37,174 nt of DNA from Candidatus Gastranaerophilales bacterium (GTDB lineage: Bacteria; Cyanobacteriota; Vampirovibrionia; Gastranaerophilales; Gastranaerophilaceae): positions 1 to 37,174 of the forward strand of contig JAFQHZ010000001.1 in the NCBI GenBank assembly GCA_017415185.1, in the 5' to 3' direction. Shown piece by piece: positions 4,533-37,173 of the stretch; the first letter of the stretch is position 1; each line of letters starts with the position of its first letter. The notes beneath the pieces are model-generated. The model did no database searches, was not told where the DNA came from, and saw only the letters and a list, made by a program, of their open reading frames with translations. The translations under genes were made by a program, and so were the position numbers.

Positions 4533-6998
4533 ATGTTAGAAAAAGAATATTATCCTCAGCAAATTGAAAAAAAATGGTTTGATATTTGGGAAGAAACAAA
4601 GCCTTACAAGGTTGACGAAAATAGTGATAAGCCAAAATATTTTGCGCTTTCTATGTTTCCATATCCTTCTGGAAAGCTTCATATGGGACATGTTCGAAAT
4701 TATACAATAACCGATGTTATTGCTCGTTTTAAAACAGCACAAGGTTTTAGCGTTCTACATCCGATGGGTTGGGATAGTTTTGGTTTGCCTGCTGAAAATG
4801 CTGCAATTCAAAAAGGAGCAAACCCAAAAACTTGGACATTGGAAAATATAGATTATATGACAAAACAACTTAAAATGCTTGGTTTGTCTGTTGACTGGGA
4901 TAGAGAAGTTACCACTTGTTTACCTGATTATTATAAATGGACTCAATGGTTATTTTTGCAATTATACAAAAAAGGTTTGGCTTATAAGAAAAATGCGCCA
5001 GTAAATTGGTGTGAAAAATGCGCAACGGTTTTAGCAAATGAACAAGTAATTGATGGAAAATGTTGGAGATGTGATTCAGAAGTTACCAAGAAAAATCTTT
5101 CTCAATGGTTCTTTAAAATTACGCAATATTCTGAACAATTGCTTGCTGACCTTGATAAATTAACAGGTTGGGGCGATAACGTTAAAACTATGCAAGAAAA
5201 CTGGATTGGAAAATCAACTGGTGCAATTTTAAAATTTAAAGTTAAAGAGCTTGAAGATGTTGAAATTCCAGTTTACACAACTCGTGCAGACACTGTTTAT
5301 GGGGTTACATATCTTGTTGTTGCTCCTGAATATAAAGACATTGAAAAATTAACAACACCGGAAAATTTAAAAGCTGTTCAAGAATATCGTGAAAATGCTA
5401 AAAAAATGAGCGAAATTGAACGTCTTTCAACAGATAGAGTTAAAACCGGCGTTCCTTTAGGGACTCATATTATAAACCCATTCACTGGGCGAGTTTGCCC
5501 AATTTGGGTTGCTGACTATGCTCTTGTTGATTATGGAACTGGTGCTGTTATGGCTGTTCCATATCATGATGAAAGAGATTTTGCGTTTGCAAAAAAATAT
5601 AATCTTCCGATGATTCAAGTTATCACTGGCGAAGATTTTAAAGAAGGCGAATGTTATATCGAAAAAGGAACTTTAATCAATTCAAAACAATTTGATGGAA
5701 TAGACGCCGTTTCTGCTCGTGATAAAATTACGGAATTTGCTAAACAAGAAGGTTTTGGTGAATTTAAAACCCAATATCGTTTAAGAGATTGGTTAATTTC
5801 TCGTCAAAGATATTGGGGCGCGCCAATTCCGATTGTATATTGTGAAAAATGCGGCGAAGTTGCTGTTAGCGAGGAATCTCTTCCAGTATTATTGCCTGAA
5901 GATGTTGATTTCTCGGTTAAAGGCAAATCTCCAATTGAAACAAGTGCAACATTCAAAGAAACAACTTGTCCAAAATGCGGTGGCAGAGCAACAAGAGACA
6001 CAGACACAATGGATACATTTGTTTGCTCAAGTTGGTACTATTTAAGATATGCTGACGCTAAAAATGCTGATAAATGCTTTGATAGAGATTTGGTTAATAA
6101 ATGGTTGCCTGTTGATCAATATGTTGGCGGAATTGAGCATGCAATTTTGCACTTATTATATTCTCGCTTCTTTACAAAAGCGCTTCGTGACTGCAATTTG
6201 TTAGATTTTGACGAGCCTTTTGCAAATCTTTTAACACAAGGTATGGTTTTAAAAGATGGTTCAAAAATGTCTAAATCTAAAGGGAACACTGTTGATCCTG
6301 ATGAAATTTATGCAAATTATGGCGCTGATACTGCCCGTTTATTTATTTTATCTGATTCTCCACCTGCTCGTGATTTTGATTGGACTGACGCAGGCGTTGA
6401 AGGATGCTATAAATTCATTTCAAGAGTATATCGTCTATATTCGAAATTCCAAGAAAAAATCAAACTTGATTATGATTTTGATATTAAAAATCTTTCTAAA
6501 AAAGACGACGATTTTGTTCGTGAAGTTCATATAGCTATTAAAAAGATTACAAAAGATATTGAAAACGAATTTCAATTTAATACTGTAATTTCAAGTTATA
6601 GAGAGCTTACAAACTCAATTTACGAATATATAAAGGCAGAATCAGAAATTAATTATGACGTTTTAAGCTTTGGTCTTTTAACTTTATTAAAATTAATCTC
6701 TCCTGTTTGCGTATTTATGAGTGAAGAAATCTATTCTTCATTAGGCGCTACAAAATCAATTCACCAAGAACCTTGGTGTCAATTTGATGAAAATTTAGCC
6801 AAAACTAGTGCTATAACTTTAATTGTTCAAGTTAATGGAAAATTAAGAGACAAGCTTGAAGTTCCTCAAGGACTGGATAATTCTGAACTTGAAAAATTAG
6901 CGCTTGCTGCGCCAAAAGCAAAAGAATTTATTGGCGATAAGCAAGTTGTAAAGGTCATTGTTGTTCCAAATAAGCTTGTTAATATCGTTGTTAAATAA
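4533..6998 (+). CDS. leuS: Leucyl-tRNA synthetase
   Basis: This class I synthetase charges tRNA-Leu and edits mischarged products. The HMGH motif is at residues 50-53 (PYPSGKLHMGH) and KMSKS at about 578-582 (DGSKMSKSKGNT). A zinc ribbon WCEKC...CWRCD lies near residue 155-180, and a second Cys pair set YCEKCG...CPKCGG lies after the editing domain. The CP1 editing domain shows TRADTVYGVTYLVVAPE and the DYGTGAVMAVPYHDERDFAFA segment. It is 821 residues, full length. It is third in hom-thrC-leuS, a setting that ties a leucine synthetase to threonine synthesis. A strong terminator follows. Confidence 0.97.
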   Translation: MLEKEYYPQQIEKKWFDIWEETKPYKVDENSDKPKYFALSMFPYPSGKLHMGHVRNYTITDVIARFKTAQGFSVLHPMGWDSFGLPAENAAIQKGANPKTWTLENIDYMTKQLKMLGLSVDWDREVTTCLPDYYKWTQWLFLQLYKKGLAYKKNAPVNWCEKCATVLANEQVIDGKCWRCDSEVTKKNLSQWFFKITQYSEQLLADLDKLTGWGDNVKTMQENWIGKSTGAILKFKVKELEDVEIPVYTTRADTVYGVTYLVVAPEYKDIEKLTTPENLKAVQEYRENAKKMSEIERLSTDRVKTGVPLGTHIINPFTGRVCPIWVADYALVDYGTGAVMAVPYHDERDFAFAKKYNLPMIQVITGEDFKEGECYIEKGTLINSKQFDGIDAVSARDKITEFAKQEGFGEFKTQYRLRDWLISRQRYWGAPIPIVYCEKCGEVAVSEESLPVLLPEDVDFSVKGKSPIETSATFKETTCPKCGGRATRDTDTMDTFVCSSWYYLRYADAKNADKCFDRDLVNKWLPVDQYVGGIEHAILHLLYSRFFTKALRDCNLLDFDEPFANLLTQGMVLKDGSKMSKSKGNTVDPDEIYANYGADTARLFILSDSPPARDFDWTDAGVEGCYKFISRVYRLYSKFQEKIKLDYDFDIKNLSKKDDDFVREVHIAIKKITKDIENEFQFNTVISSYRELTNSIYEYIKAESEINYDVLSFGLLTLLKLISPVCVFMSEEIYSSLGATKSIHQEPWCQFDENLAKTSAITLIVQVNGKLRDKLEVPQGLDNSELEKLALAAPKAKEFIGDKQVVKVIVVPNKLVNIVVK

Positions 6999-7016
6999 AA
7001 CACAAAAACAATATTC

Positions 7017-7041
7017 AAAAAGCGCAAAATTTGCGCTTTTT
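7017..7041 (+). terminator. Intrinsic terminator after leuS
   Basis: The 12-base arms AAAAAGCGCAAA (7017-7028) and TTTGCGCTTTTT (7030-7041) form a stem around a single base, so the innermost pairs must open to make the loop. The distal arm ends in a T-run. It closes the hom-thrC-leuS operon and stands before the Shine-Dalgarno of the next gene. Confidence 0.85.
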
Positions 7042-7073
7042 GTGTTTTAAATGTATATCAAACAGGAGAGAAA

Positions 7074-8066
7074 ATGAGAATACAAGCGCTAACTTCATTT
7101 AAAAATATTAGCAGGATAAACAATAATAAAACTAATTCAATCTTAACTAAACCTCAATATGATTCGTTTAGTTTTTCTGGCAAAGTTTTATCTTATGAAG
7201 AAATGAAGCCATTGAAGTTGCAAGCGTATCAAATTCAACAAGATTCAATTCAATATCAAAATGAAGCGCTTGAAATTAAAGACGATGCTTATTTTACCTT
7301 ATCAAAAGCAAAAGAAGAATATATTCAAGCTCTTAAATATTGCAATTCTTTCAAGAAAAACCCTTCAAAATTAAATTTAACACTTCCAAATGGCAATGTT
7401 TTGGAATATAAATTTGAATTAAAAAATGGTAATTTTACTCTTGAAATCGAAGAAAAAAACGACGAAGATGCAATTGTTAAAACAATAAGCGCTGTTAATT
7501 TTGCTCCTGTTAAAGTTGCAAATTATAATCAAGATGGTGTTGATTTATTTGAATATAGTGGAAACAATGTTGTTGCAATTAAAAATTTAAGCGCAGACGG
7601 CGCTTCATTAGGACAATATGATTCAATTTATTCGTATCGAAGCGGAAAATTATACAGCGCTTTATTTGGCGGCAATTTGGCTACTTTCTTAGAACCAAGT
7701 GAAAAAATGATTGTATATTTCGATGACAAACCAACAATTTATTCTCTTGGAAACATTGTTAATCCAAAAGGAAACAGATGTAGCGCTGATGAAAGATATG
7801 TTTTTATTGGCAATTCTTTGTCTAATTATTACTATCATTTTTGCGGAAGTGACCAAGGCGAAATGCTTTGGGATGAAAGCTTTCATTTTGAAAAAGGAAA
7901 ATTTATTGGCTCAATTAATAATGGTGAACAAAAAGCTAAAAATGAAGACATAATCAGCAACGACGCTGTATATTTAAATGATGATAATCAATTTGTTCGA
8001 ACAACAAAACTTCATGCTCGTGTGAGCGATTTTGGTTTGCCTGTTTTTGTCGATTGTGAAAATTAA
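7074..8066 (+). CDS. Unknown 330-aa protein with N-terminal FSFSGK motif
   Basis: I do not recognise the family. The start is well supported by AGGAGAG 4 bases before the ATG. The first ~30 residues are polar and Asn/Lys-rich without a classical signal peptide, and then comes SFSFSGK (31-37). A helical stretch follows (about residues 40-95, Q/E/K-rich). The remainder is rich in short beta-like segments with Asn, Gly and aromatic residues (DSIYSYRSGKLY, YVFIGNSLSNYYYHFCG), possibly a repeat-built beta structure like MORN-type toggles, though I cannot confirm repeats. The last ~60 residues are acidic and polar. It is a single gene after the leuS terminator and its stop overlaps the deoB stop by 4 bases. 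It shares an N-terminal F-x-G signature with the proteins at 28834-29589 and 29600-30292. Confidence 0.75.
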   Translation: MRIQALTSFKNISRINNNKTNSILTKPQYDSFSFSGKVLSYEEMKPLKLQAYQIQQDSIQYQNEALEIKDDAYFTLSKAKEEYIQALKYCNSFKKNPSKLNLTLPNGNVLEYKFELKNGNFTLEIEEKNDEDAIVKTISAVNFAPVKVANYNQDGVDLFEYSGNNVVAIKNLSADGASLGQYDSIYSYRSGKLYSALFGGNLATFLEPSEKMIVYFDDKPTIYSLGNIVNPKGNRCSADERYVFIGNSLSNYYYHFCGSDQGEMLWDESFHFEKGKFIGSINNGEQKAKNEDIISNDAVYLNDDNQFVRTTKLHARVSDFGLPVFVDCEN

Positions 8067-9193
8067 AGTAAATGTTTTTTAATTATTTCGCTAACATAAA
8101 CAAATGAGTCTTTAATTCCAATATTTTCGCCTGTATTTTCTTTTTTGAACATTAAATATGGAACTTGTTCTCTTGTGTGATCTGTTCCTTTGTGTGTTGG
8201 GTCGCAGCCGTGGTCTGCTGTGATAATTAAAATGTCTTCGTTTGTCATTGAATTGATGAATTTTGGAATATAAGAATCAATTTCTTCAATTGCTTTTTTG
8301 TAGCCAAAAGAATCTCTTCGATGACCATAAAGCATATCTGTATCAACAAGATTTGTAAAAATTAAATCAGCATCGCTGTTTTTAATTGCTTCAAGGGTTT
8401 TATTCAAGCCATCTGTATTGCCTTTGGTTAAAATTTTCTCATCAACTCCAGAACCCACAAAAATATCGTAAATTTTGCCTATTCCAAGGGTTTTTTTGCC
8501 TTGTTTTTGTAAAATATTTAATAAAGTATCACTCGGAGGTTCAACCGAATAATCATGACGAAGTCCTCCGATTCTCGTTGGTTTTCCGTTGATGATTTGA
8601 TAAGGTCTAGCGATAACTCTTGAAATGCCATAATTATATTCATCCAAAATTTCTCTTGCGATTTTGCACCATTCATAAAGTGTTTCAACTGGAATCAAGT
8701 CTATATCAAGAGCAATTTGAAAAACACTATCTGCTGAAGTATAAACTATTGGAAATTTTGTTTCTTGGTGTAATGTATTTAATTCTTCGATGATTGCAGT
8801 TCCTGAAGCGGGTTTGTTTCCAAGAATTCCTCCGCAATTTGTTCTTTTGATGAATTCATTTATTAATTTATCATCAAATTTTAAATATGTTTTAAATGGG
8901 TTTTCTAAAACTAAGCCCATCAATTCCCAGTGTCCTGTTGTGGTGTCTTTTCCTTTTGATTTCATTTTTAATATGCCAAAATCAGCGCTTGGTGTTGTTG
9001 TTTTTTTAACGCCTTCAATATCAATAATATTTCCTAAGCCCATTTTTTCAAAATTTGGCACATTCAAGCCTCCAGTAGCTTTTGCAAGGTTTGCTATTGT
9101 ATTACAAGACAAATCGTCATTGTATTCATTCGCGTCTTTTAATGCTCCGCAACCCATTGAATCAACAACTACAACAATTGCTCTTTTTTTCAT
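8063..9193 (-). CDS. deoB: Phosphopentomutase
   Basis: It interconverts (deoxy)ribose-1-phosphate and (deoxy)ribose-5-phosphate in nucleoside salvage and breakdown. It is a metalloenzyme of the alkaline-phosphatase superfamily. The metal and nucleophile signatures are visible: VVVVDSMGCGA (D11), YTSADSVFQIA (the T/S nucleophile region), TNLVDTDMLYGHRRD, and ITADHGCDPTHKGTDHTRE near the C-terminus. At 376 residues it matches the usual ~390. It lies 2 bases downstream of the PLP decarboxylase stop, so the two are almost certainly one transcript. Confidence 0.96.
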   Translation of the reverse strand: MKKRAIVVVVDSMGCGALKDANEYNDDLSCNTIANLAKATGGLNVPNFEKMGLGNIIDIEGVKKTTTPSADFGILKMKSKGKDTTTGHWELMGLVLENPFKTYLKFDDKLINEFIKRTNCGGILGNKPASGTAIIEELNTLHQETKFPIVYTSADSVFQIALDIDLIPVETLYEWCKIAREILDEYNYGISRVIARPYQIINGKPTRIGGLRHDYSVEPPSDTLLNILQKQGKKTLGIGKIYDIFVGSGVDEKILTKGNTDGLNKTLEAIKNSDADLIFTNLVDTDMLYGHRRDSFGYKKAIEEIDSYIPKFINSMTNEDILIITADHGCDPTHKGTDHTREQVPYLMFKKENTGENIGIKDSFVYVSEIIKKHLL

Positions 9194-9195
9194 AA

Positions 9196-10507
9196 TTACA
9201 CCATTATTTCTACATCTTTATCAAGATAATCTAAGTGCCATTTTTGTATAGCTTCGCCAGGATATAATAAGCCAATTCCAGGAGGATAAGGCATTATTGT
9301 TTTGTTTGAAATTTTAAGAAGTGAATTTTCTTTATTAACATACATATATTCACGATTAAACGTGTCCACTGGTTGAATTTTTGTTAGTGGAAAAGGTTGA
9401 AAATCTGTTTTAACAAATTCATAAGATGGGTTTGTAATAACCTTTTTTAAGCCATTTTTTAATTTTTCAAGCTTTGATTTTGTTGTTCCAATTCCTGTTA
9501 AATATAAACAAGAAATTGCATTATTCATTTCATCTTCAATATTAAATTCGTCAAACATAATTTCCGATAAATCGTATCCTGAAATTCCTTCTTTTCTTGC
9601 AAGAATTTTTGTTTGATCATGGTTTTCGCTTACATAAAATTGAACGCCAAAACGATTTAAGTCTTTTTTTAGCTTGTCTATTTCGCAAAATAACCCATTA
9701 ATTTCTTTATTGCCATCTTCTGAATTTAAGAAATTAATGCAGTGTTCGATATTTGACAATAAAGGATATGAAGGAGAAGATGTTTGAAAGATATTAATTG
9801 CCCTTTGAAATGTTTCAATATCAATGTTTTGGATATTATTTCCAATGTTTAATAATGCGCATTGGTTAAGTGCGCCTGCGGTTTTATGCAAAGAATTAAT
9901 TGAAACATCAGCTCCTTGCTCCATTGCTGATTTAGGCAAGTTTGAAGAAAAATTGTTCAATGTTCCATGGGCTTCATCCACAATTAAATAAATATTAAAT
10001 TTTTTGCAAAGTTTTGCAATTTTTTCAATATCTGAGTTTATTCCTTCATAAGTTGGCGATGTCATAATGAAAGCTTTGTATTGATTAAGATTGAAAGTTG
10101 ATTCTAATTTTTCGCAATCAATATGAGTATATATTCCCCAATTTTCGTCTGTTTCAGGAATAAACCAATCAACAATTCCTGCAGTCAAAATTAATCCATT
10201 AAAAACTGATTTATGACAATTTCTTGCGACTAAAACTTTATCCCCTGGATTAATTAAGGCTTTCATAGCACTCAAAATTGCCGTTGTTGCGCCTTGAGTA
10301 ATGAAAAAAGTTTGCTTAGCGTTCATTATTTCGGACGCTTTTGCTTGAGCATAAAAAATTGAACTTTTAGGATTAGACAAATTATCAAATCCATTTACTT
10401 CAGAATAGTCAATGTTATACATATTGCTTATGCTTGTGTTAAACATTGGTTTTTGCGAATGTGATGGTGTTGTGAATAATATTTTATCTGTTTTTTTGCT
10501 TAATAAT

Positions 10508-10521
<14 letters not shown>
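9196..10521 (-). CDS. Orn/Lys/Arg decarboxylase-family PLP enzyme
   Basis: This is a fold-type I PLP decarboxylase of the basic amino acid group (Gram-positive-type SpeA/lysine decarboxylase, OKR_DC_1), probably making cadaverine, putrescine or agmatine; the substrate cannot be read from sequence. The PLP lysine is K213 in SINSLHKTAGALNQ, the cofactor Asp is in VDEAHG (D182), and FITQGATTAILSA holds the phosphate loop. The C-terminal domain shows PYPPGIGLLYPGE, typical of this family. At 441 residues it lacks the N-terminal wing domain of inducible enterobacterial enzymes. There is no Shine-Dalgarno. TTGTTT-N17-TAATAT places the -10 six bases before the ATG. It is divergent from ligA with only 23 bases between start codons and is followed by deoB. 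Confidence 0.88.
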
Positions 10522-12560
<2,039 letters not shown>

Positions 12561-12561
12561 T

Positions 12562-13284
12562 ATGCTAAAAAGATTTGCTGTTACTTTTTTAATGTGTGGA
12601 ATGATGTTTGCGCCTGTAATTGCAGCAGATTGTCAAGAATCTATTATTACAACTGATGCAACAATCAATCGTGAAATTGCGCCAGATACAGCAAAAATTA
12701 CATTTATGGTTGAAAATTCAGGATTAAATTTGGCCGCTATTAAAGAAAAAAATGACAAAATTGTTAATGATGCAATGGCTGCAATTAAAGCCCAATTAGC
12801 AACTAACGAATCCATTAAAACAATTGCTTTTAATGTTCGAAATATTTATTCTTACAAGGATAAAGTTCGTGTATTTCAAAAATACGCTGTGTCTAATGGG
12901 TTTGAAGTTAAGTTAAAAGATTTAGATAAAGTTTCAAATATAATTAATCTAGCTATGGGTAATGGCGTTAAAAATATTGAAGGCGTAAATTTTTACATTG
13001 AAGATTCAGAATCTGTTTGTAACAATATGATGGCAGAAGCAATTAAAATGGGTAAAAATCGAATTCAACACTTATCAAATGCAGCAGGAACTTCTCTTGA
13101 TAAAGCAAAAAGCATTAACCCATATTGTTCTTTGAATTCTTCTAACACTCGCTCTCATGTAAACAAGGTTTATGCTAATGCAATGGTTGATTCTGTTGCT
13201 GCAGATGCACCTGCAATGGAAACATTTGAACCTGGAAAAATAAACGTTAGAGCTTCTGTTAATATGGTTTATTATTTAAAATAA
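12562..13284 (+). CDS. Secreted SIMPL-domain (DUF541) protein
   Basis: A signal peptide is clear: MLKRF, a hydrophobic core (AVTFLMCGMMFAPVIA) and likely cleavage after AIAA near residue 22. The mature protein has the SIMPL/DUF541 pattern: an opening strand with TTDATINREIAPDTAKITFMVEN, NDAMAAIKAQL, and a closing INVRASVNMVYYL. It should lie in the periplasm or envelope; the family's molecular role is not well defined. I place the start at ATG 12562, after a strong GGAGG in the end of ligA; an upstream in-frame ATG at 12523 lies within ligA and would bury the signal peptide. It is cotranscribed with ligA. No terminator is obvious after it. Confidence 0.85.
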   Translation: MLKRFAVTFLMCGMMFAPVIAADCQESIITTDATINREIAPDTAKITFMVENSGLNLAAIKEKNDKIVNDAMAAIKAQLATNESIKTIAFNVRNIYSYKDKVRVFQKYAVSNGFEVKLKDLDKVSNIINLAMGNGVKNIEGVNFYIEDSESVCNNMMAEAIKMGKNRIQHLSNAAGTSLDKAKSINPYCSLNSSNTRSHVNKVYANAMVDSVAADAPAMETFEPGKINVRASVNMVYYLK

Positions 13285-13298
13285 AGTTTGTTAAGGGC

Positions 13299-13411
13299 TT
13301 GCGTTTTAATTTGCAAATGATATTATATAAATATCGGCACTGGATGGAGTAACCTTTGAGGTTTTATGATTTTCGTGCTTTTTATATTGTATTAGGTCAT
13401 TTAGGAAACTT
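13299..13411 (+). promoter_or_regulatory. Promoter and structured leader of the SNF2 gene
   Basis: TTGCGT (13299-13304), 16 bases, TATTAT (13321-13326) predicts a start near 13333 and a ~79-base leader. The leader contains nested complementary arms: GCAC (13337-13340) with GTGC (13375-13378), and AACCT (13351-13355) with AGGTT (13359-13363). The outer arm is followed by TTTTTAT, so it may act as an attenuator or be a short RNA. AGGAAA precedes the GTG start. Confidence 0.4.
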
Positions 13412-16400
13412 GTGAAGTACACATTTAATAATAAATTTCTTAAGGATAATTCTAAACCTGGTTCTTATAGAAGAGGATATGAAACTTTTCAAAAGGACAT
13501 GGTAACAGAGCTTAAGTTTAATGAAAATATCGTCAGAGCAAAAGTAAAGGGCAATTTTAAATCTCATTATGAAACTGGGATTAAATTTACAAAAGCTGGC
13601 GTTAAGCCAACTTGCAATTGTCCTTTAGAAGAGCCTTGGTGTAAACATGCTATTGCTCTTGGTTTTGCAACTTTGAAAAATCATTTTTTTGAAGAATTTC
13701 TTTATGAAAAAATGAACATTGAGCCTGAATTAACCGATGAAGATTTGCCAATGTTCGAAAATCCTCAAGGCGATTTTATTTTCCATTTCAATCCAAAACG
13801 TCGCCAAAATTTCTTTTCAATTTTGGTTATGAATCGCCATACAAAAAAAGTTATTCGTGATTTGGAAGCTGTTTTTAAACAAATCATTGCTCGACAAAAA
13901 GAGGAAGAAAATTTTGAATTAAACAACGCTCAAAAGCTCGAAGTTGTTATGTTTAAAATGCTTTTGAGTCAATCAAGGTTGGATAAAAAATCTGGCTGGT
14001 ATGATGTTCAAATCAACAAATTTGATGAGTTTTTCAAAATGCTTTCTAAACAAGAAGACGTTATTGACGCTAAAACTCACAAAAAAATCAAATTTTCTGA
14101 TTCAATTTGGAATCTTTGTTTAGATGTTAATGTTTCTTATGTTGGAAATGTTTTATTAAGTTTATATTGGAAACGAAACGATATTGATGAAATTTATCCT
14201 TTTGAGGATGTGAGATATTTTTCTCGTCAATTGAAATGGGGACGATACAAAGACATTATTTTCCCTGTGGATGCATCAGTAAGTGTTGTTCCTCAAAACC
14301 TTACTAAAACAAGCTTTTCGGATATAAAAGACGCCGATGGTGGCAAATTTGTTTATGAGGACTTGCCTAAAATTAAAGAAGCAATGACAGTTAATATGTC
14401 TGAAGAAATGGAAAAGCTCACATTTGAAAAACGTCCGCCAAAGTGTGTTGTTGAGCTTGGAGTTGATTATGATCAAAGCTTAAAAGCTTCTTTAGAATTT
14501 GAATATGACGGCGTGAGAGTTCCTTATCAAAAGCAATTTAAAAGCCCTTATGTTACAATTAAGGATCCTAAAAAAGATTTACTTTATTGGGTAAAAAGGG
14601 ATATGCAGCTTGAACAAGCAGCTTATCAAATGCTTCTTGCTTGCAGATTTGCGCCCGTTCAATCAAACAACTTGGCGCTTGATAAAGAATATGCTATTGA
14701 TTTTTATAATTACTATATTTCAAAAGCAGGCGATGGCTGGCAATTTATTGAAAAAGACGATTTATCTTTCTATAAATTAAATAAAAAAGGCTTAAAATTA
14801 ATTGCAGACATAGACTTTAGCGAAGATGGCACAGATATTTTTGAAATTCAACTTAAGGGTCTTGCTGATGATAGAGAAGTTGATTTTGAAAAGGTTATTG
14901 ATTTAACTTATGAGGGTGCAAAATATTACAATGTTCCTTCAGGAGGACAAGTTTCCATCCCTACCGATGATGTTTTGTCTTTGTTGAAATCTTTCAATAC
15001 TTATGATGTTTACAAAAACAATGATGAAAAATATATCGTAAAAACATATCGTGCTGGGGTTGTGTCTGAAATGGAAAAAATGGGCATAACTTTAAAAATG
15101 AGCCGTAGTTTTTCTAAATTTTGGAAAGAAATTTCCACCTTTTCAACAATGGATACAACCACTCTTCCGAAAGCTTCAAAAGCCGAATTAAGAGAATATC
15201 AATTGAAAGGTTATTCTTGGCTTTGGTTTTTGTATAAATATGGCTTAAATGGCGTTCTAGCAGACGATATGGGGCTTGGAAAAACCGTTCAAACTTTAAC
15301 TTTATTACAAAAAGCAAAAGAAAAAGATGGTAAAGAGCCAAGTTTGGTTGTTTGCCCTACTTCTGTTGTTTTTAACTGGGAAAAAGAAATTGAAAAATTT
15401 GCGCCAAACCTTAAGTTTTTAACATTGGCTGGCGTTGATAGAAAAAGTAATTTTGATAAAATTCAAGATTATGATGTTGTTATCACAAGCTATGCTTTAA
15501 TTAGAAGAGATATTGAAGAACTCAAGGAACAAAAATTCAGATATATCATTCTTGATGAATCTCAAAATATTAAAAACTCTTCTTCTCAAACAGCTCGTGC
15601 TTGTAAAACACTGAATGCTGGTCATAGATTGGCTCTTTCAGGTACGCCAATTGAAAATAAACTTGAAGAATTGTGGTCTGTTTTTGATTTTCTTATGCCT
15701 GGATTTTTGTTTGATGCAAAAGAATTTAATAATAGATTTGTTGTTCCAATTGTTGATGGTGAGGATACAGAGGTTCAAAAGCGCTTAAAATCACAAATTT
15801 TCCCATTTATTCTTCGCCGTATGAAAAGAGACGTTGCAAAAGATTTGCCTGATAAAATCGAATCAGTTGCATATTGTGAACTCACATCTGACCAAAAAGA
15901 CTTGTATTTGCAAGTTCTTGATTCAACTAAAGAAGAATTATTTAAATCAATCGAGACAGTTGGTCTTGAAAAATCTAGAATGTCGATTTTCTCTGCGCTG
16001 TTGCGCTTAAGACAAATTTGTTGTCATCCAAGATTGTATGATAAAGAAGGTCAACTTGGTATCAATGAATCAGGTAAATTTGAACAATTGCAAAATATGC
16101 TAGAACAAGTTATTGCAGAAAAGCATAGAGTATTATTGTTCTCTCAATTTGTTGGAATGCTTGATATCATTAAAGCTTGGCTTGATTCTAAAGGTATTAA
16201 AAATGAATATCTATCGGGTAAAACAAAAGATAGACAAGCCGTTGTTGAACGATTCAATAATGACCCAACAATTCCAATTTTCCTTGTTTCACTTAAGGCT
16301 GGCGGAACTGGCTTGAATCTTACTGGCGCAGATTATGTTATCCACTATGACCCATGGTGGAACCCTGCGGTTGAAGACCAAGCAACAGATAGGGCTTATC

Positions 16401-27434: not shown

Positions 27435-27495
27435 TATTATCTCCTCAAAAATTAAATAGTCTTAAAAATATATGTTTATTTTACTATGAACATGA

Positions 27496-27508
27496 TAAAA
27501 TTTGCTAT
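27496..27508 (+). promoter_or_regulatory. -10 box directly before mnmE start
   Basis: TAAAAT (27496-27501) is followed by 7 bases and ATG 27509 with no Shine-Dalgarno. The -35 is weak. This fits leaderless initiation. Confidence 0.5.
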
Positions 27509-28831
27509 ATGGAAAACAATTTTGATACAATTTGCGCAATAATAACCCCGCTTGCAACTGGAGCCGTTGGAATAATAAGGATTTCGGGCGATAAATCTTT
27601 TAATATTGCTCAAGAAATATTTGATAAGAAAATCAAACCTAAAATGATAAATTATGGGCATATTATCGATGGAAATGACGTTATAGACGAAGTTATCATA
27701 CTTCCTTTTGTTGCTCCGCATAGCTATACAGGCGATGATGTCATTGAAATTCAAACCCATGGAAGCCCAATTGTCTTAAATTCTGTTTTAGAGTTGATTT
27801 TATCAAAAGGTGCAAGGCTTGCTTTAAGAGGGGAATTTACTAAGCGTGCTTTTTTAAACCATAGAATTGACTTATCTCAAGCAGAAGCAATTTTAGATAT
27901 TATTCAGTCAAAAAGCGCAAAATCGGCTCAAAATGCTTTATCTAATTTGGGCGGATATTTAAAAAACAAAACTAACGAAATTAAAAATAATTTAATTGAA
28001 ATTTATTCAAAAGTTATTGCTTCAGTCGATTTTCCTGAAGATGTTGCTGAAGTTGATACAAATTATATCGTTTCGAAATGTAGTGATAATATTCTTCAAT
28101 TGGAAGAAATTTTAAATAACTCTAGAAGTCACGATTTTATTAGGGATGGACTAAATGCTTGTTTAATCGGAAAACCTAATGTTGGCAAAAGTTCGCTTTT
28201 TAATGCACTTTTAAATTACACTCGTGCAATTGTTACTCCAATTGAAGGTACAACTCGTGACACAATTAAAGAAGCAATCAATTTAAATGGATATTTAATC
28301 AATTTTATTGATACAGCAGGAATTCGAGACAAAGAAAAAGCAGATTTAGTTGAACAAATTGGAATTGATAATTCGCTTGAAGCAATTGAAAATAGCGAAA
28401 TTGTATTATTTTTGTTTGAAAATTCTTTGTCTGAAATCGAAGAAGAATTGATTGAAAGAGCAAAAAATAAACAAATATTGTTTATCAAAACAAAATGTGA
28501 TATAAATTCAACTTCTGTCGATAATTCGCTTGAAATTAGCTCAAAAACAGGCTTTGGAATTGACAAATTAAAAGAAAAAATAACCGAAATTATTAAAAAT
28601 TTAATTCCGCAAGATTCTAATTACACAACAAACAAGCGCCAGCAAACCTGTCTTTTGAGAGCGAAAGAGTCGCTTTATAATGTTATTAAAACTTCTGAAT
28701 TTAATTCTGATGCTGATTTGTTTGCAATGGATTTAAAACAATCAATTCTTGCGCTTGATGAAATCACTGGCGAAGTCTTAACTGATACAATTTTAGACAA
28801 TATATTTGACAATTTTTGTATTGGCAAATAA
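27509..28831 (+). CDS. mnmE: tRNA modification GTPase MnmE
   Basis: With MnmG it adds the carboxymethylaminomethyl group to wobble uridine 34 of certain tRNAs. The N-terminal domain opens DTICAIITPLATGAVGIIRISG (folate-binding fold). The inserted G domain shows GKPNVGKSSLFN (G1), DTAGIRD (G3) and TKCD (G4). The last residues CIGK are the MnmE signature with the catalytic Cys. It has 440 residues. I chose ATG 27509, as the longer frame from 27362 would pass through the yidC start and promoter region. Its stop is 2 bases from the convergent unknown gene. Confidence 0.97.
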   Translation: MENNFDTICAIITPLATGAVGIIRISGDKSFNIAQEIFDKKIKPKMINYGHIIDGNDVIDEVIILPFVAPHSYTGDDVIEIQTHGSPIVLNSVLELILSKGARLALRGEFTKRAFLNHRIDLSQAEAILDIIQSKSAKSAQNALSNLGGYLKNKTNEIKNNLIEIYSKVIASVDFPEDVAEVDTNYIVSKCSDNILQLEEILNNSRSHDFIRDGLNACLIGKPNVGKSSLFNALLNYTRAIVTPIEGTTRDTIKEAINLNGYLINFIDTAGIRDKEKADLVEQIGIDNSLEAIENSEIVLFLFENSLSEIEEELIERAKNKQILFIKTKCDINSTSVDNSLEISSKTGFGIDKLKEKITEIIKNLIPQDSNYTTNKRQQTCLLRAKESLYNVIKTSEFNSDADLFAMDLKQSILALDEITGEVLTDTILDNIFDNFCIGK

Positions 28832-30329: not shown

Positions 30330-31604
30330 CTAAATTAATTTTCTTGCTATATGATTAGCGACAGCTTCACCCATGGACATGCAACTTTTTTGAACTCTAA
30401 GTGCGCTATGGGCTTCAAAATCTGCTCCAAGAATTTTTCCAATCATATAAAGATTGTCATAATTTGCGCTCATCAAGGATTCAATTGGTAATTCATAAAT
30501 AGAAGTTTTTTGTAAAACGGAAGAATTTTTGTTTGCGCTATGAATATCAATTGAATAATTTGCCCTTAAAACTGGCGTATCAAAGGTTTTTGAAGATATT
30601 AAATCTTCTTTAGTAAACACATATTTTGATTTAATTCGATTTTCTTCTCGAATCCCTGTTTGAGTCGCAATATTTGTTATTATTGAATCTTGAAAGCCTG
30701 GGAAATATTTTTTAACAAAGTTATATATTCTCCAAATCGCTTTTTTTGCTGATATTAGCTCTTTTGAAGCCATATATGGGTTATTTTGATAATTATCGAT
30801 ACGAGGGCAATTGAAAGCTACTTGGTTTTTTGCACCCGCAATTGAAAAAATTTGGAAATAAGAGCGGTCTTTTTCGTTTAAAATTCCTTCATTAACGCCT
30901 TTTTGAAGGTATTTATCGAGTGCCCAATAACAAGATGTGTCCCAAGTCGATGCAGTTGTGAAATGCAATTCGTTGTTAGTATCTCTATCGTTTCGATAGG
31001 TATTGGTAATATTCTCGTCTTTATCAATTTCGGTTATAAAATTACAAAATTCCTCAATATTAACATTTCCAAGAATAAAACGAAGAGAGTTTTGCTGTTT
31101 TTTGTTTTCTGAAGGCAAAATATCGCAATTTGCCAAAATTGAAAATTCAGCAGAACCTGTTGCATCAATAAAATACATCGCCTCGATTGGTATTGATAAT
31201 ATATTTGATTTTAAAATTACTGAATTGATTTTGTTTTCATTATAAGATATTGATTCAACAGTTGTTTCAAAAAGAATATCCAAATTATTAAACTCAAGAA
31301 CTTCCTCAAGAACAATTTTTAAAACTTCAGGATTAAGCCATCCATCGTTTTTGTCGGAATATGTTATTTGCGCATTAAATTTTTTTGCTGTATCGATTAA
31401 TTTTTTATAAAAACCACAATTCAAATCTTCAACCGAAGATTTCATGATTGGAACAACTAATCCCCCCGTCATCAACCCGCCAAGAAAATTGTTTTTTTCA
31501 ATTAGTAAAGTTTTTAATCCAAGTTTGGCGCAATTATATGCGCAAGCACATCCAGAAGTGCCTCCGCCAACAATTAAAACGTCGTATTTTGATAGTTTAT
31601 CCAT
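30330..31604 (-). CDS. FAD-dependent oxidoreductase (FAD_oxidored type)
   Basis: The N-terminus has the dinucleotide motif VLIVGGGTSGCACAYNCAK and, at the end of the second strand, LLIEKNNFLGGLMTGG, the form seen in the FAD_oxidored (PF12831) group. YFIDATGSAEFSILA and the C-terminal YMIGKILGADFEAHSALR close the FAD site. The substrate is unknown. I place the start at ATG 31604 (424 aa): the upstream in-frame ATG at 31622 lies inside the promoter. There is no Shine-Dalgarno. Two copies of the regional 18-bp motif lie within the gene (at 30993 and 31183). It is divergent from the response regulator. Confidence 0.85.
   Translation of the reverse strand: MDKLSKYDVLIVGGGTSGCACAYNCAKLGLKTLLIEKNNFLGGLMTGGLVVPIMKSSVEDLNCGFYKKLIDTAKKFNAQITYSDKNDGWLNPEVLKIVLEEVLEFNNLDILFETTVESISYNENKINSVILKSNILSIPIEAMYFIDATGSAEFSILANCDILPSENKKQQNSLRFILGNVNIEEFCNFITEIDKDENITNTYRNDRDTNNELHFTTASTWDTSCYWALDKYLQKGVNEGILNEKDRSYFQIFSIAGAKNQVAFNCPRIDNYQNNPYMASKELISAKKAIWRIYNFVKKYFPGFQDSIITNIATQTGIREENRIKSKYVFTKEDLISSKTFDTPVLRANYSIDIHSANKNSSVLQKTSIYELPIESLMSANYDNLYMIGKILGADFEAHSALRVQKSCMSMGEAVANHIARKLI
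30993..31010 (+). repeat. Regional motif, copy 1 (inside FAD oxidoreductase)
   Basis: TCGATAGGTATTGGTAAT, 2 differences from the exact core. The nine bases before (CTATCGTTT) and ATATT after continue the similarity to copy 4, giving 25 of 27 matching positions. Here TATCG-TTT-CGATA is a perfect inverted repeat. Confidence 0.7.
31183..31200 (+). repeat. Regional motif, copy 2 (inside FAD oxidoreductase)
   Basis: The exact core TCGATTGGTATTGATAAT within coding sequence (the codons for ILSIPIE on the minus strand). The preceding ATCGCC again lets ATCG pair with CGAT. Confidence 0.75.
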
Positions 31605-31610
31605 ATTCTT

Positions 31611-31638
31611 ATTATAGGCCATGCTTTGCTATTTGCAA
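31611..31638 (-). promoter_or_regulatory. Promoter of FAD oxidoreductase
   Basis: On the minus strand TTGCAA (31638-31633), 16 bases, perfect TATAAT (31616-31611), then 6 bases and ATG 31604. This is the best-formed promoter of the window that sits directly on a start codon. Confidence 0.7.
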
Positions 31639-31681
31639 AAGTGTTCTATTATATATCCTTTTAAACTCCTTTGCATGCAAT

Positions 31682-31699
31682 TCGATTGGTATTGATAAT
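31682..31699 (+). repeat. Regional motif, copy 3 (intergenic, merges with dif-like site)
   Basis: The exact core TCGATTGGTATTGATAAT, in the gap between the divergent oxidoreductase and response regulator. Its right two thirds form the left arm of the dif-like sequence at 31688. Confidence 0.75.
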
Positions 31700-31715
31700 G
31701 TATATTATGTACGAA
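31688..31715. other. dif: Candidate dif-like XerC/XerD recombination site
   Basis: The 28-bp segment has the 11-6-11 layout of dif: left arm 31688-31698 (GGTATTGATAA), central TGTATA (31699-31704), right arm 31705-31715 (TTATGTACGAA). The inner 16 bases ATAATGTATATTATGT equal the core of E. coli dif as I remember it, and the leading GGT also agrees. The outer ends differ. It is intergenic, as expected. No xer gene is in the window. The left arm is shared with four other motif copies that lack the right arm, so it may be a chance similarity in AT-rich DNA. Confidence 0.4.
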
Positions 31716-31790
31716 GGGGGATTAAATTTCAAAAATGATAAATTATACCTCCCAAAATCAATTTTAAATGATATTTCAAGTTTAAATTGC

Positions 31791-31796
31791 TATAAT
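31791..31796 (+). promoter_or_regulatory. -10 box upstream of response regulator
   Basis: A perfect TATAAT preceded by a weak -35. The leader would be ~75 bases and contains a 13-codon frame (31825-31866) whose stop overlaps the AAGGAG Shine-Dalgarno of the response regulator. Confidence 0.35.
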
Positions 31797-31878
31797 AATA
31801 GCTTTTATTTTTAAAATTTTTCCAATGAAAAGGAAATTGAATGTTGATATTTTAAATCATAAATAAAAGGAGAAATTT

Positions 31879-32571
31879 ATGCAAAATAATATAATTGAAA
31901 ATCAAAATGAACATATTGTTAGGCTAATATTAATTGATGACCATAAACTTTTTCGCTGTGGGATAAAATCATTGTTTGAAAATTCAAAAGGAGTTTGCGT
32001 TGTGGCTGAAGCTTCCAATGGCAAAGACGGAATCGCAAAAATTCTTGCGCAAAATCCTGATGTTGTTTTGCTTGACTTGGAATTGGGCGACATTAACGGA
32101 TTAGATTTGATTGAAAGAGTGATTTCTCAAAAGCCAAACGTTAAATTTGCAATTTTAACTTCGCATGTTAATGAGCATGTTATTAATAAAGCGATGAAAA
32201 TGGGAATTTATGGATATATTTTAAAAGATATTAACTCAGAATTGCTTGATATGATTGTAAAATCGGTCTCAAAAGGAGCAATGTGGATTGATAGGAAAGT
32301 TGTTCAAATTTTAAGAGAATTAAACCCAAATGTCGTTCCAAATGCGCAAATTTCGCGCTCAAATTTTAAATCGACCCATGCAAACCTGACAGCAAGGGAA
32401 TACGAGGTCCTTAAACTTGTTGTTGATGGTAAATCTAACCTTCAAATTGCAAATGAGTTAAATATTTCAGAACATACATCAAAAGCCCACGTTTGCAATA
32501 TCATTCAAAAGCTTGTTGTTGATGATAGAACACAAGCAGCGGTGAAAGCAATTCGTGAAGGAATTGTTTAA
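31879..32571 (+). CDS. NarL/FixJ-family response regulator (orphan)
   Basis: The N-terminal receiver has the acidic pair D20/D21 (LILIDDHKLF), the phospho-acceptor D66 (VVLLDLELGD), T94 (AILTS) and K116 (YILKDI). The C-terminal LuxR-type HTH (residues ~168-228) shows NLTAREYEVLKLVVDGKSN then LNISEHTSKAHVCNII. It is thus a DNA-binding transcriptional regulator controlled by phosphorylation. No histidine kinase is nearby, so it is an orphan. AAAGGAG precedes the ATG. It is flanked by inverted copies of the 18-bp motif (31682 and 32574), which could be its binding sites. Confidence 0.93.
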   Translation: MQNNIIENQNEHIVRLILIDDHKLFRCGIKSLFENSKGVCVVAEASNGKDGIAKILAQNPDVVLLDLELGDINGLDLIERVISQKPNVKFAILTSHVNEHVINKAMKMGIYGYILKDINSELLDMIVKSVSKGAMWIDRKVVQILRELNPNVVPNAQISRSNFKSTHANLTAREYEVLKLVVDGKSNLQIANELNISEHTSKAHVCNIIQKLVVDDRTQAAVKAIREGIV

Positions 32572-32573
32572 AT

Positions 32574-32591
32574 ATTATCAATACCAATCGA
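32574..32591 (-). repeat. Regional motif, copy 4
   Basis: The exact core in inverted orientation, starting 2 bases after the response-regulator stop. Read on the minus strand it is preceded by AATCGTT, so AATCG-TTT-CGATT is a perfect inverted repeat. Confidence 0.75.
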
Positions 32592-32609
32592 AACGATTAT
32601 AACTAGAAT

Positions 32610-32627
32610 ATTATAGATACCTATCGA
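32610..32627 (-). repeat. Regional motif, copy 5
   Basis: TCGATAGGTATCTATAAT on the minus strand, 15 of 18 positions as in the core, 36 bases from copy 4 in the same orientation. Both lie in the presumed promoter region of the rhodanese gene, together with TATAAC/TTATAG elements. Confidence 0.55.
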
Positions 32628-32652
32628 CTAGATATAAAACAAAGGAGGAAAA

Positions 32653-36762: not shown

Positions 36763-37173
36763 TTAACATAAATCAGGCCAACAACAACTTACTGAATAGC
36801 CACATGGATGATGACATGAAGGACATGAGACAACACCAGAGCCACAACTGCCATCAGGACGAGTGTTGCTGCATACTCCACCTGGGTCAAAGGTCCATCC
36901 ACTTCCCAATGAAGAACAATAATCAGCAGTTATATCTCCTCCATTACATGGAGTTTGCCCTGATTCAATCATACATGCGTAATTGTTTCTAAGTTGCGCT
37001 ACAGAGTTACAATCATAACTAGCTAACTCATTTTCCTGACACATCATTTCATACTCAATCCCCTTGGAGCTTATGGGGAAGTTGAATTGGTCTTTGTAGG
37101 GGGTGTTGGGTTCTTCTTCGCCATTGATGTCTACTGTTATGATTCCAAGGAGGGATTTAGACATTTCACAACC
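36763..37173 (-). CDS. Type IV pilin-like protein, 5'-truncated by window edge
   Basis: This is the paralog of the gene at the left edge. The frame is open to the right edge (GCE before MSKSLLGIITVDINGEEE), so the ATG at 37164 is unlikely to be the true start. The first ~47 residues are almost identical to the other copy. The remaining ~90 differ but keep a framework: C-N-GG-D-I-T-x-DYC-SSLGSGWTF, then Cys-rich SCPSCHHPCGYSVSCC. About 14 Cys in 137 residues imply disulfides outside the membrane. Codon use is C-rich. It lies upstream of and in the same direction as adhE, without a visible terminator between (111-base gap). Confidence 0.6.
   Translation of the reverse strand, partial: GCEMSKSLLGIITVDINGEEEPNTPYKDQFNFPISSKGIEYEMMCQENELASYDCNSVAQLRNNYACMIESGQTPCNGGDITADYCSSLGSGWTFDPGGVCSNTRPDGSCGSGVVSCPSCHHPCGYSVSCCWPDLC

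Follow-up and report, generated by a model that had tools for sequence, protein, structure and literature searches.

Why does one 18-base sequence recur five times within 1.65 kb of a bacterial genome, on both strands and partly inside a gene? The question is raised by a 37,174-nt stretch of DNA from a Candidatus Gastranaerophilales bacterium (assembly GCA_017415185.1, contig JAFQHZ010000001.1), which is contig C11 of the home assembly and is called the window here. Gastranaerophilales are gut relatives of Cyanobacteria. An earlier note on this DNA had placed the five copies around an orphan response-regulator gene and had offered binding sites of a regulator (the response regulator or the sigma factor), a recombinase or uptake signal, or remnants of a small mobile repeat as explanations. 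Of these the recombinase signal is favoured by the present study, as the copy at 31682 continues into a 28-bp sequence which is almost certainly dif, the chromosome-dimer-resolution site of the XerC and XerD recombinases. dif is where joined chromosomes are separated before cell division. The other copies are arranged on both sides of this site and point towards it, and it is very probable that this dif-linked array is under selection. The wider question is how cells lacking FtsK limit Xer recombination to true chromosome dimers. A dif site is now located in Gastranaerophilales, backed by phage insertions and accompanied by a conserved, polar array that would act in cis.

Copies in the window and in the home genome

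It was found that the window contains five copies of the 18-mer at up to three mismatches, against an expected 0.07, and that all of them lie within the 1.65 kb. Three are exact (the copy at dif and sites C and D of Table 1), while site B has two mismatches and site E has three. This agrees with what had been reported, as does the likeness of copies 1 and 4, which match at 93% across 27 bases with two differences. None of 100 dinucleotide shuffles of the window gave five matches. Two copies had been placed in coding sequence, and both are indeed inside a flavin adenine dinucleotide (FAD)-dependent oxidoreductase gene. No copy had been noticed elsewhere in the window, and this holds up to three mismatches. 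At four mismatches three more matches appear, and one of these, in mnmE, was singled out as a weaker sixth copy (site A) since it is kept in relatives.

The earlier note had suggested a genome-wide scan, by which clustering could be told from scatter. In the home assembly (1,874,080 bases in 43 contigs) all four copies with up to two mismatches are at the window locus, the reversed-pattern control gave 0, and the orientation of the copies is kept in relatives. A 22-base pattern at up to three mismatches, scanned over the whole assembly, adds copy 5, the weak copy in mnmE (28068-28089) and one copy on contig C25. The same scan also yields two matches with three mismatches on other contigs, and the backwards-read control likewise gave two. 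The copy on C25 (G000:C25:64561) is probably the seventh copy of the array, site F. A site resembling it was found 2.7-11.5 kb beyond dif in relatives. The window contig runs for another 5.5 kb after dif, and a contig break between the window contig and C25 would fit the position of site F. The reading frames 92-679 and 36763-37164, one at each end of the window, have their first ~45 residues in common, and this shared contig-end repeat may have broken the assembly.

Identification of dif

The 28-bp site consists of two arms about a 6-bp centre with a conserved XerD-side arm, which is the layout of an XerCD/dif site. It is intergenic, with the FAD gene to its left and the regulator gene to its right. 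The core GATAATGTATATTATG is present at the same locus in 24 of 24 home-genus genomes examined. Other genera of the family have a TATATA centre and the right arm TTATGTAAGAAGGC, and in genomes of f2, f3, f4 and f6, which belong to the same order, the core is GATAATATATATTATG. Sixteen bases, ATAATGTATATTATGT, are common to the dif of the window and that of E. coli; the E. coli sequence used in this comparison was found in MG1655. A dif site is expected once per chromosome, and the home genome has a single GATAATGTATATTATG at up to one mismatch. Extra exact cores in G013, G018 and G153 fall within reading frames, and a core with one mismatch occurs elsewhere in 16 home-genus relatives. A loose scan of the home genome for the dif core was uninformative because 19 places matched, 16 of them with one mismatch. 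The order's 286 genomes include only 109 with the exact core, and the search gave no convincing dif in families f5 and f7.

The identity of dif is supported independently by phages that have integrated in the dif core of relatives, as mobile elements do at XerCD/dif sites. Three of the 24 home-genus genomes (G002, G011 and G016) have an insertion of about 5.5 kb which starts at dif and carries a variant second dif-like core at its far end. The two insertions that were tested (G002 and G016) encode a microvirus capsid protein (PF02305, E values of 1e-174 and 2e-91) and also a replication protein (PF23343). According to the available text of PMC7062461, gokushoviruses integrate through XerCD in E. 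coli and leave the upstream dif intact and a variant downstream. The dif of Legionellales was found in a comparable way through the insertion of a mobile element, as the accessible part of PMC9765430 describes. In G188 (G188:C6:32558-38097) two cores are 5,524 bp apart, and by core spacing alone this may be a fourth prophage. The reading frames of the G002 prophage run in the direction opposite to those of G011 and G016.

All three base-composition skews switch sign across dif in three genomes, none of which is a closed chromosome. Their changepoints are 7.6 to 90 kb away from dif, varying by genome and by measure; the keto offsets are -12.0, +12.2 and -20.3 kb.

The array in related genomes

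The home genus was surveyed by a site-matrix scan of 24 genomes, and 20 loci of the family outside this genus were sampled. Orientation was counted at 66 loci, namely 24 of the home genus, 19 others of the family (f1, which is probably Gastranaerophilaceae) and 23 of named relatives, which are metagenome-assembled genomes designated Candidatus Gastranaerophilales. Loci were chosen that had either the exact core or a dif with a regulator homologue next to it. Three loci of the named set (L203, L207 and L214) were left out of this count, L203 being G104 and L214 being G224. One genome, G216 (genus g33), was dropped from the sequence-conservation, co-variation, 66-locus and regulator counts, as its match had no FAD neighbour and no site above 14 bits; it was scanned in the 25-genome scan given below but supplied no seed. 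The matrix was trained on these same loci, and orientation was no part of the training.

In the home genus a counterpart of site A lies at -2.1 to -5.2 kb from dif in 23 of 24 genomes (none seen in G010), and one of site C is also present in 23 of 24 (missing in G022). Sites B and C are found about -0.7 kb and -0.5 kb from dif and are 190 bp apart wherever both are present. On the other side D and/or E lie at about +0.9 kb, more distantly in the three prophage carriers and in G010, and site F lies at +2.7 to +11.5 kb in 16 of the 24 genomes; several of the stretches end short of it. Left sites are on the plus strand and right sites on the minus strand with two exceptions, both weak left-hand minus sites (G002 and G022), so that nearly all sites of the genus face dif. 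When 438 kb of reversed sequence was scanned as a control, five matches exceeded 11 bits.

Outside the genus the same arrangement was observed at 19 of 20 further family loci, with altered sequence. At equal threshold, 113 flanking sites were counted in 25 genomes, compared with 6 in reversed sequence. Inward sites are present on both sides of dif at 65 of the 66 loci, the exception probably being G209. Over these loci 276 of 305 sites point inward and 29 outward (left plus 142, left minus 9, right minus 134, right plus 20), and opposed polar sites flanking the terminus are what is looked for in a fork trap. Opposed sites less than 80 bp apart have preferred spacings, 37-38 bp for 9 of 15 convergent pairs and 19 bp for 11 of 15 divergent ones, in counts uncorrected for relatedness. 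A short motif, over-represented and skewed along whole replication arms, as is typical of KOPS (FtsK-orienting polar sequences), was not found, the sites being confined to the dif region. This confinement, together with the conserved position and orientation, contradicts the uptake signal and the scattered mobile repeat that had been among the options; a genome-wide repeat or motif was rejected for the same confinement. In E. coli MG1655 no second 18-base arm site was found at up to five mismatches in 18 kb around dif; the same threshold in the AT-rich window gives 19 matches besides dif, mostly background at four to five mismatches.

Sequence of the sites and evidence of selection

The accessory sites share about 22 bp, CGnnTCGAT(A/T)nRTAnTGATAA, with the left half of dif, and there is hardly any conservation on the XerD side. 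By this comparison the accessory copies are XerC-side half-sites that lack the XerD side. A palindromic TCGnnnCGA half is present in 84 of 126 home-genus and 24 of 80 other accessory sites. The sites also vary together with dif. In a test with 16 genera, one genome each, accessory sites matched the dif arm of their own genome at 13.61 of 18 positions and those of other genera at 12.90, a difference equalled in 2 of 20,000 permutations. Excluding the home genus, the values are 13.44 and 12.93 (37 of 20,000 permutations).

Two of the sites lie in the FAD gene, where conservation of third codon positions was compared in 24 genomes. The top 12 eight-codon windows are all on sites B and C, and the ranks are 2 of 421 windows for B and 14 of 420 for C. 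Site A ranks 25 of 456 in mnmE, and its synonymous-position conservation is suggestive only. As far as third positions tell, the array is under selection as DNA. It was also observed that mnmE codons about 13-36 (window about 27470-27545) have third-position conservation of 0.92-1.0 in 23 genomes, above that of site A.

Table 1. Positions of dif, the candidate accessory sites, neighbouring genes and related mobile DNA (window numbering unless a locus is named)
Feature	Position	Strand	Remarks
dif (almost certain)	31688..31715	+	XerC-side arm GGTATTGATAA 31688-31698; centre TGTATA 31699-31704; XerD-side arm TTATGTACGAA 31705-31715
Copy 3 of the earlier note	31682..31699	+	left half of dif plus 6 outer bases
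Accessory site A (weaker)	28073..28090	+	inside mnmE; toward dif; counterparts in relatives
Accessory site B	30993..31010	+	codons about 204-212 of the FAD-oxidoreductase gene; toward dif
Accessory site C	31183..31200	+	codons about 140-149 of the FAD-oxidoreductase gene; 190 bp from B; toward dif
Accessory site D	32574..32591	-	immediately past the response-regulator stop codon; toward dif
Accessory site E	32610..32627	-	36 bp beyond D; toward dif
FAD-dependent oxidoreductase gene	30330..31622	-	PF12831, 5e-79; regular left neighbour of dif in the family
NarL-type response-regulator gene	31879..32571	+	right neighbour of dif in some genera; not needed for the array
Microvirus (gokushovirus-like) prophages at dif	L065 about 7041-12580; L073 about 4577-10220; L077 about 7814-13470
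TTCCGATAACATATATTATG repeat in G087	L273 1794 and 2934; L274 1566 and 2296; L275 1487; L276 1524

Xer recombinases and FtsK

The home genome has two XerC/XerD-like proteins among five tyrosine recombinases, as a two-recombinase system would require. These proteins, L116 and L117, have 295 and 297 amino acids. L116 scores best with XerD (309.5 bits, cut-off 329.6), and L117 gives 298.2 with XerC (cut-off 335.15) and 297.6 with XerD. Since both Xer proteins score under the equivalog cut-offs, the naming of L117 as XerC is provisional.

In E. coli the gamma domain of FtsK activates XerD. This domain reads KOPS and is directed to the terminus (available text of PMC2680272). FtsK gamma was found over the cut-off in none of 286 genomes of the order, with two weak partial matches under it, and the motor domain was over the cut-off in five (nearly complete in two pieces in G191, partial in four). 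In the home genome neither gamma nor motor domain was found, and control of XerCD/dif by an FtsK motor with a gamma domain is thus not seen there. Of the 14 control genomes, 8 passed the cut-off for each domain, among them E. coli and B. subtilis. If the absence of FtsK is real, the order must control XerCD in another way. Synechococcus elongatus, which was in the control set, gave no FtsK match over the cut-off either.

Possible role of the array

By analogy with plasmid Xer sites, the array could be an accessory nucleoprotein site that controls or positions XerCD/dif recombination without FtsK; we hold this to be the likeliest reading and give it close to an even chance. The array would be bound on both sides of dif by XerC, acting by itself or together with a partner recognising the TCGnnnCGA half. 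This binding would fold some 1.5-2 kb of DNA about dif into a defined nucleoprotein complex. Such a complex might allow recombination only between two properly arranged copies of dif, thus serving as a topological filter like the accessory sequences of cer and psi. Alternatively, it might retain the Xer proteins at the terminus, replacing the FtsK-driven control of E. coli. It is unlikely, although conceivable, that the family has replaced FtsK control of dimer resolution with DNA, in the form of an inward-polar array of Xer half-sites, and that in the boldest form bound Xer is also a polar barrier, one protein enforcing fork convergence and dimer resolution at one 2-kb locus. Two small proteins and a DNA segment of 2 kb would allow both FtsK-free recombination control and a new fork trap to be tested, in vitro or on plasmids.

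Several observations weigh against an accessory Xer site. Twenty right-hand and nine left-hand sites face outward, and of the eight loose 11-base matches to the XerC arm near E. coli dif (up to two mismatches, dif itself excluded) six face inward, presumably by chance. The accessory consensus of about 22 bp exceeds the 11-bp Xer arm, and no domain besides the core-binding and catalytic ones was found in the two Xer proteins. The TCGnnnCGA half is nearly absent from dif (0/24 and 1/19), a hint of a second protein. Several genera have [TC]ATAAT in dif whereas the accessory sites keep GATAA, so that the specificity is not identical. These differences from dif point to XerC with relaxed specificity, or to a partner reading part of the site. 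The dif loci of outgroup families (two genomes of f2, three of f3, one of f4) have no array at up to 4 mismatches in 18 or with the family matrix. These families also have no FtsK gamma over the cut-off, with one partial motor match over it each in f3 and f4, and loss of FtsK alone thus does not predict the array.

The main rival, itself unlikely, is a Ter-like fork trap. A monomeric protein on asymmetric sites would stop replication forks from moving out of the dif region, and their meeting point would stay within about 2 kb of dif; the likeness to the XerC arm would then reflect shared ancestry or overlapping use of dif. The two opposed groups of asymmetric sites about dif resemble the ter layout of E. 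coli, and the innermost sites enclose dif, as they do in several fork-trap bacteria (both as given in the available part of PMC10331603). The presence of sites in coding as well as non-coding DNA, with synonymous positions conserved, and the sign switch of the skews across dif would also suit a fork trap. However, an arm of dif belongs to the site class and the accessory sites co-vary with dif, and fork arrest needs neither. The 19-bp divergent and 37-38-bp convergent pairs and the outward right-hand sites would be unusual in a polar barrier. The skew changepoints do not pinpoint dif and, with single skews up to 90 kb away, were rejected as proof of a fork trap for being too imprecise. No terminator protein turned up, although no search aimed at Tus or RTP was made. 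It is quite unlikely that the sites instead bind a terminus-organising protein, with a MatP-like or SMC-unloading role, which marks the dif region and acts on neither Xer nor forks. Such a protein would account for the confinement of the sites and for their palindromic half. It would also suit the sister-family genome G028, where a 40-bp inverted repeat around dif has only the palindromic half in common with the array: two exact ATCGNNNCGAT palindromes flank dif there, without the XerC-like arm. Only six such palindromes occur in 1.07 Mb, made up of three long contig stretches, and four of them are within arrays. This explanation leaves the XerC-side identity of the sites, their co-variation with dif and their inward polarity unexplained.

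The response regulator, around which the earlier note had centred the motif, fares worse. It is very unlikely that the motif represents sites by which the NarL-type regulator controls itself and the FAD and rhodanese genes, or that the regulator is the partner of the array in some genera. The regulator gene does lie within the array in all 24 genomes of the home genus and in some other genera, and a homologue with 45% identity is beside dif in G028 (L087, +223 to +864 from dif). A regulator homologue or paralogue is present in every genome searched. At 54 named loci with a regulator homologue (L167-L220), all 25 with a dif score above 22 have flanking sites. Among the other 29, sites were found at L188 (dif score 21.2), two at L194, which is cut by a contig end, and one at L217, on a 4-kb contig; no flanking sites were found at the remaining 26. 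Conversely, 13 family dif loci from 12 genera still have sites with no regulator homologue found beside dif, their right-hand genes being different, and the array is kept across the sampled family loci while the right-hand neighbour genes change. Response-regulator operators would be present with the regulator and absent otherwise, and this was not observed. Judged by position the array follows dif rather than the response regulator, and regulator sites were rejected as the whole explanation on these two comparisons. What stands in the regulator's favour is that the palindromic half is commoner beside it, which makes a partner role in some genera possible: beside the regulator the half occurs in 84 of 126 sites of the home genus, 48 of 98 of the named loci and 5 of 26 of g27, g36 and g45, or 137 of 250 when pooled, versus 19 of 54 without the regulator, in counts uncorrected for relatedness. 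Decayed remnants of elements integrated at dif are highly improbable. Elements do integrate at dif in relatives, but such insertion leaves cores that keep the XerD side and not left halves, and the accessory sites are hardly conserved on that side. Their positions, polarity and synonymous sites are conserved, and the remnants were rejected on the missing XerD-side conservation together with the synonymous-site conservation.

Comparison with known systems

The site resembles XerCD/dif of E. coli and B. subtilis in its 28 bp, its 11-bp arms and 6-bp centre, its intergenic location, which may be in the terminus region, the two Xer recombinases and its use as a target by integrating phages. To our knowledge, known dif sites recombine under FtsK and stand alone; here, in contrast, dif has XerC-side half-sites to its left and right, and no FtsK gamma is detectable. 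The plasmid sites cer and psi likewise combine an Xer core with accessory DNA and proteins (PepA, ArgR or ArcA) that favour monomers, and in cer about 180 bp of accessory DNA is bound by PepA and ArgR, according to the accessible text of PMC5357621. The present array differs in having repeated half-sites about 0.1 to 11 kb away on both sides of a chromosomal dif. With the Tus-ter and RTP-ter fork traps it shares opposed polar sites that flank the dif region, but its sites are Xer half-site-like and lie mostly within about 1 kb of dif. In archaeal XerA/dif, dimer resolution is likewise expected to proceed by a mechanism other than FtsK, and the regulation of archaeal Xer must differ from the bacterial one according to the review PMC8371274. 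That system has a single recombinase, and accessory arrays are unmentioned in the available part of that review. The prophages resemble the enterogokushoviruses, single-stranded-DNA phages of about 5 kb that integrate through the host XerCD (available text of PMC7062461), and differ in having a Gastranaerophilales bacterium as the host.

Kono et al. could not predict dif in any of the Cyanobacteria they examined (PMC3025954, accessible portion). No paper joining Melainabacteria with a dif site was found among the open-access papers searched. Nor was a description of half-site arrays flanking a chromosomal dif found in the titles and abstract openings looked through there, and an earlier account is possible.

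Neighbouring genes and dif-like mobile ends

The FAD gene is on the left of dif in 24 of 24 genomes of the genus and at 19 of 20 other loci of the family; only the discarded G216 lacks it there. Within the genus the regulator is 80-89% identical to that of the window, which exceeds the identity of the FAD and rhodanese neighbours. In G087 (genus g17) a repeat was observed whose ends carry TTCCGATAACATATATTATG, one change from the dif core, either as inverted pairs 0.7-1.1 kb apart or singly. Further cores with one mismatch are present in this genome at G087:C1:513150 and 513855 (L272). The repeat resembles a small mobile element that has dif-like ends.

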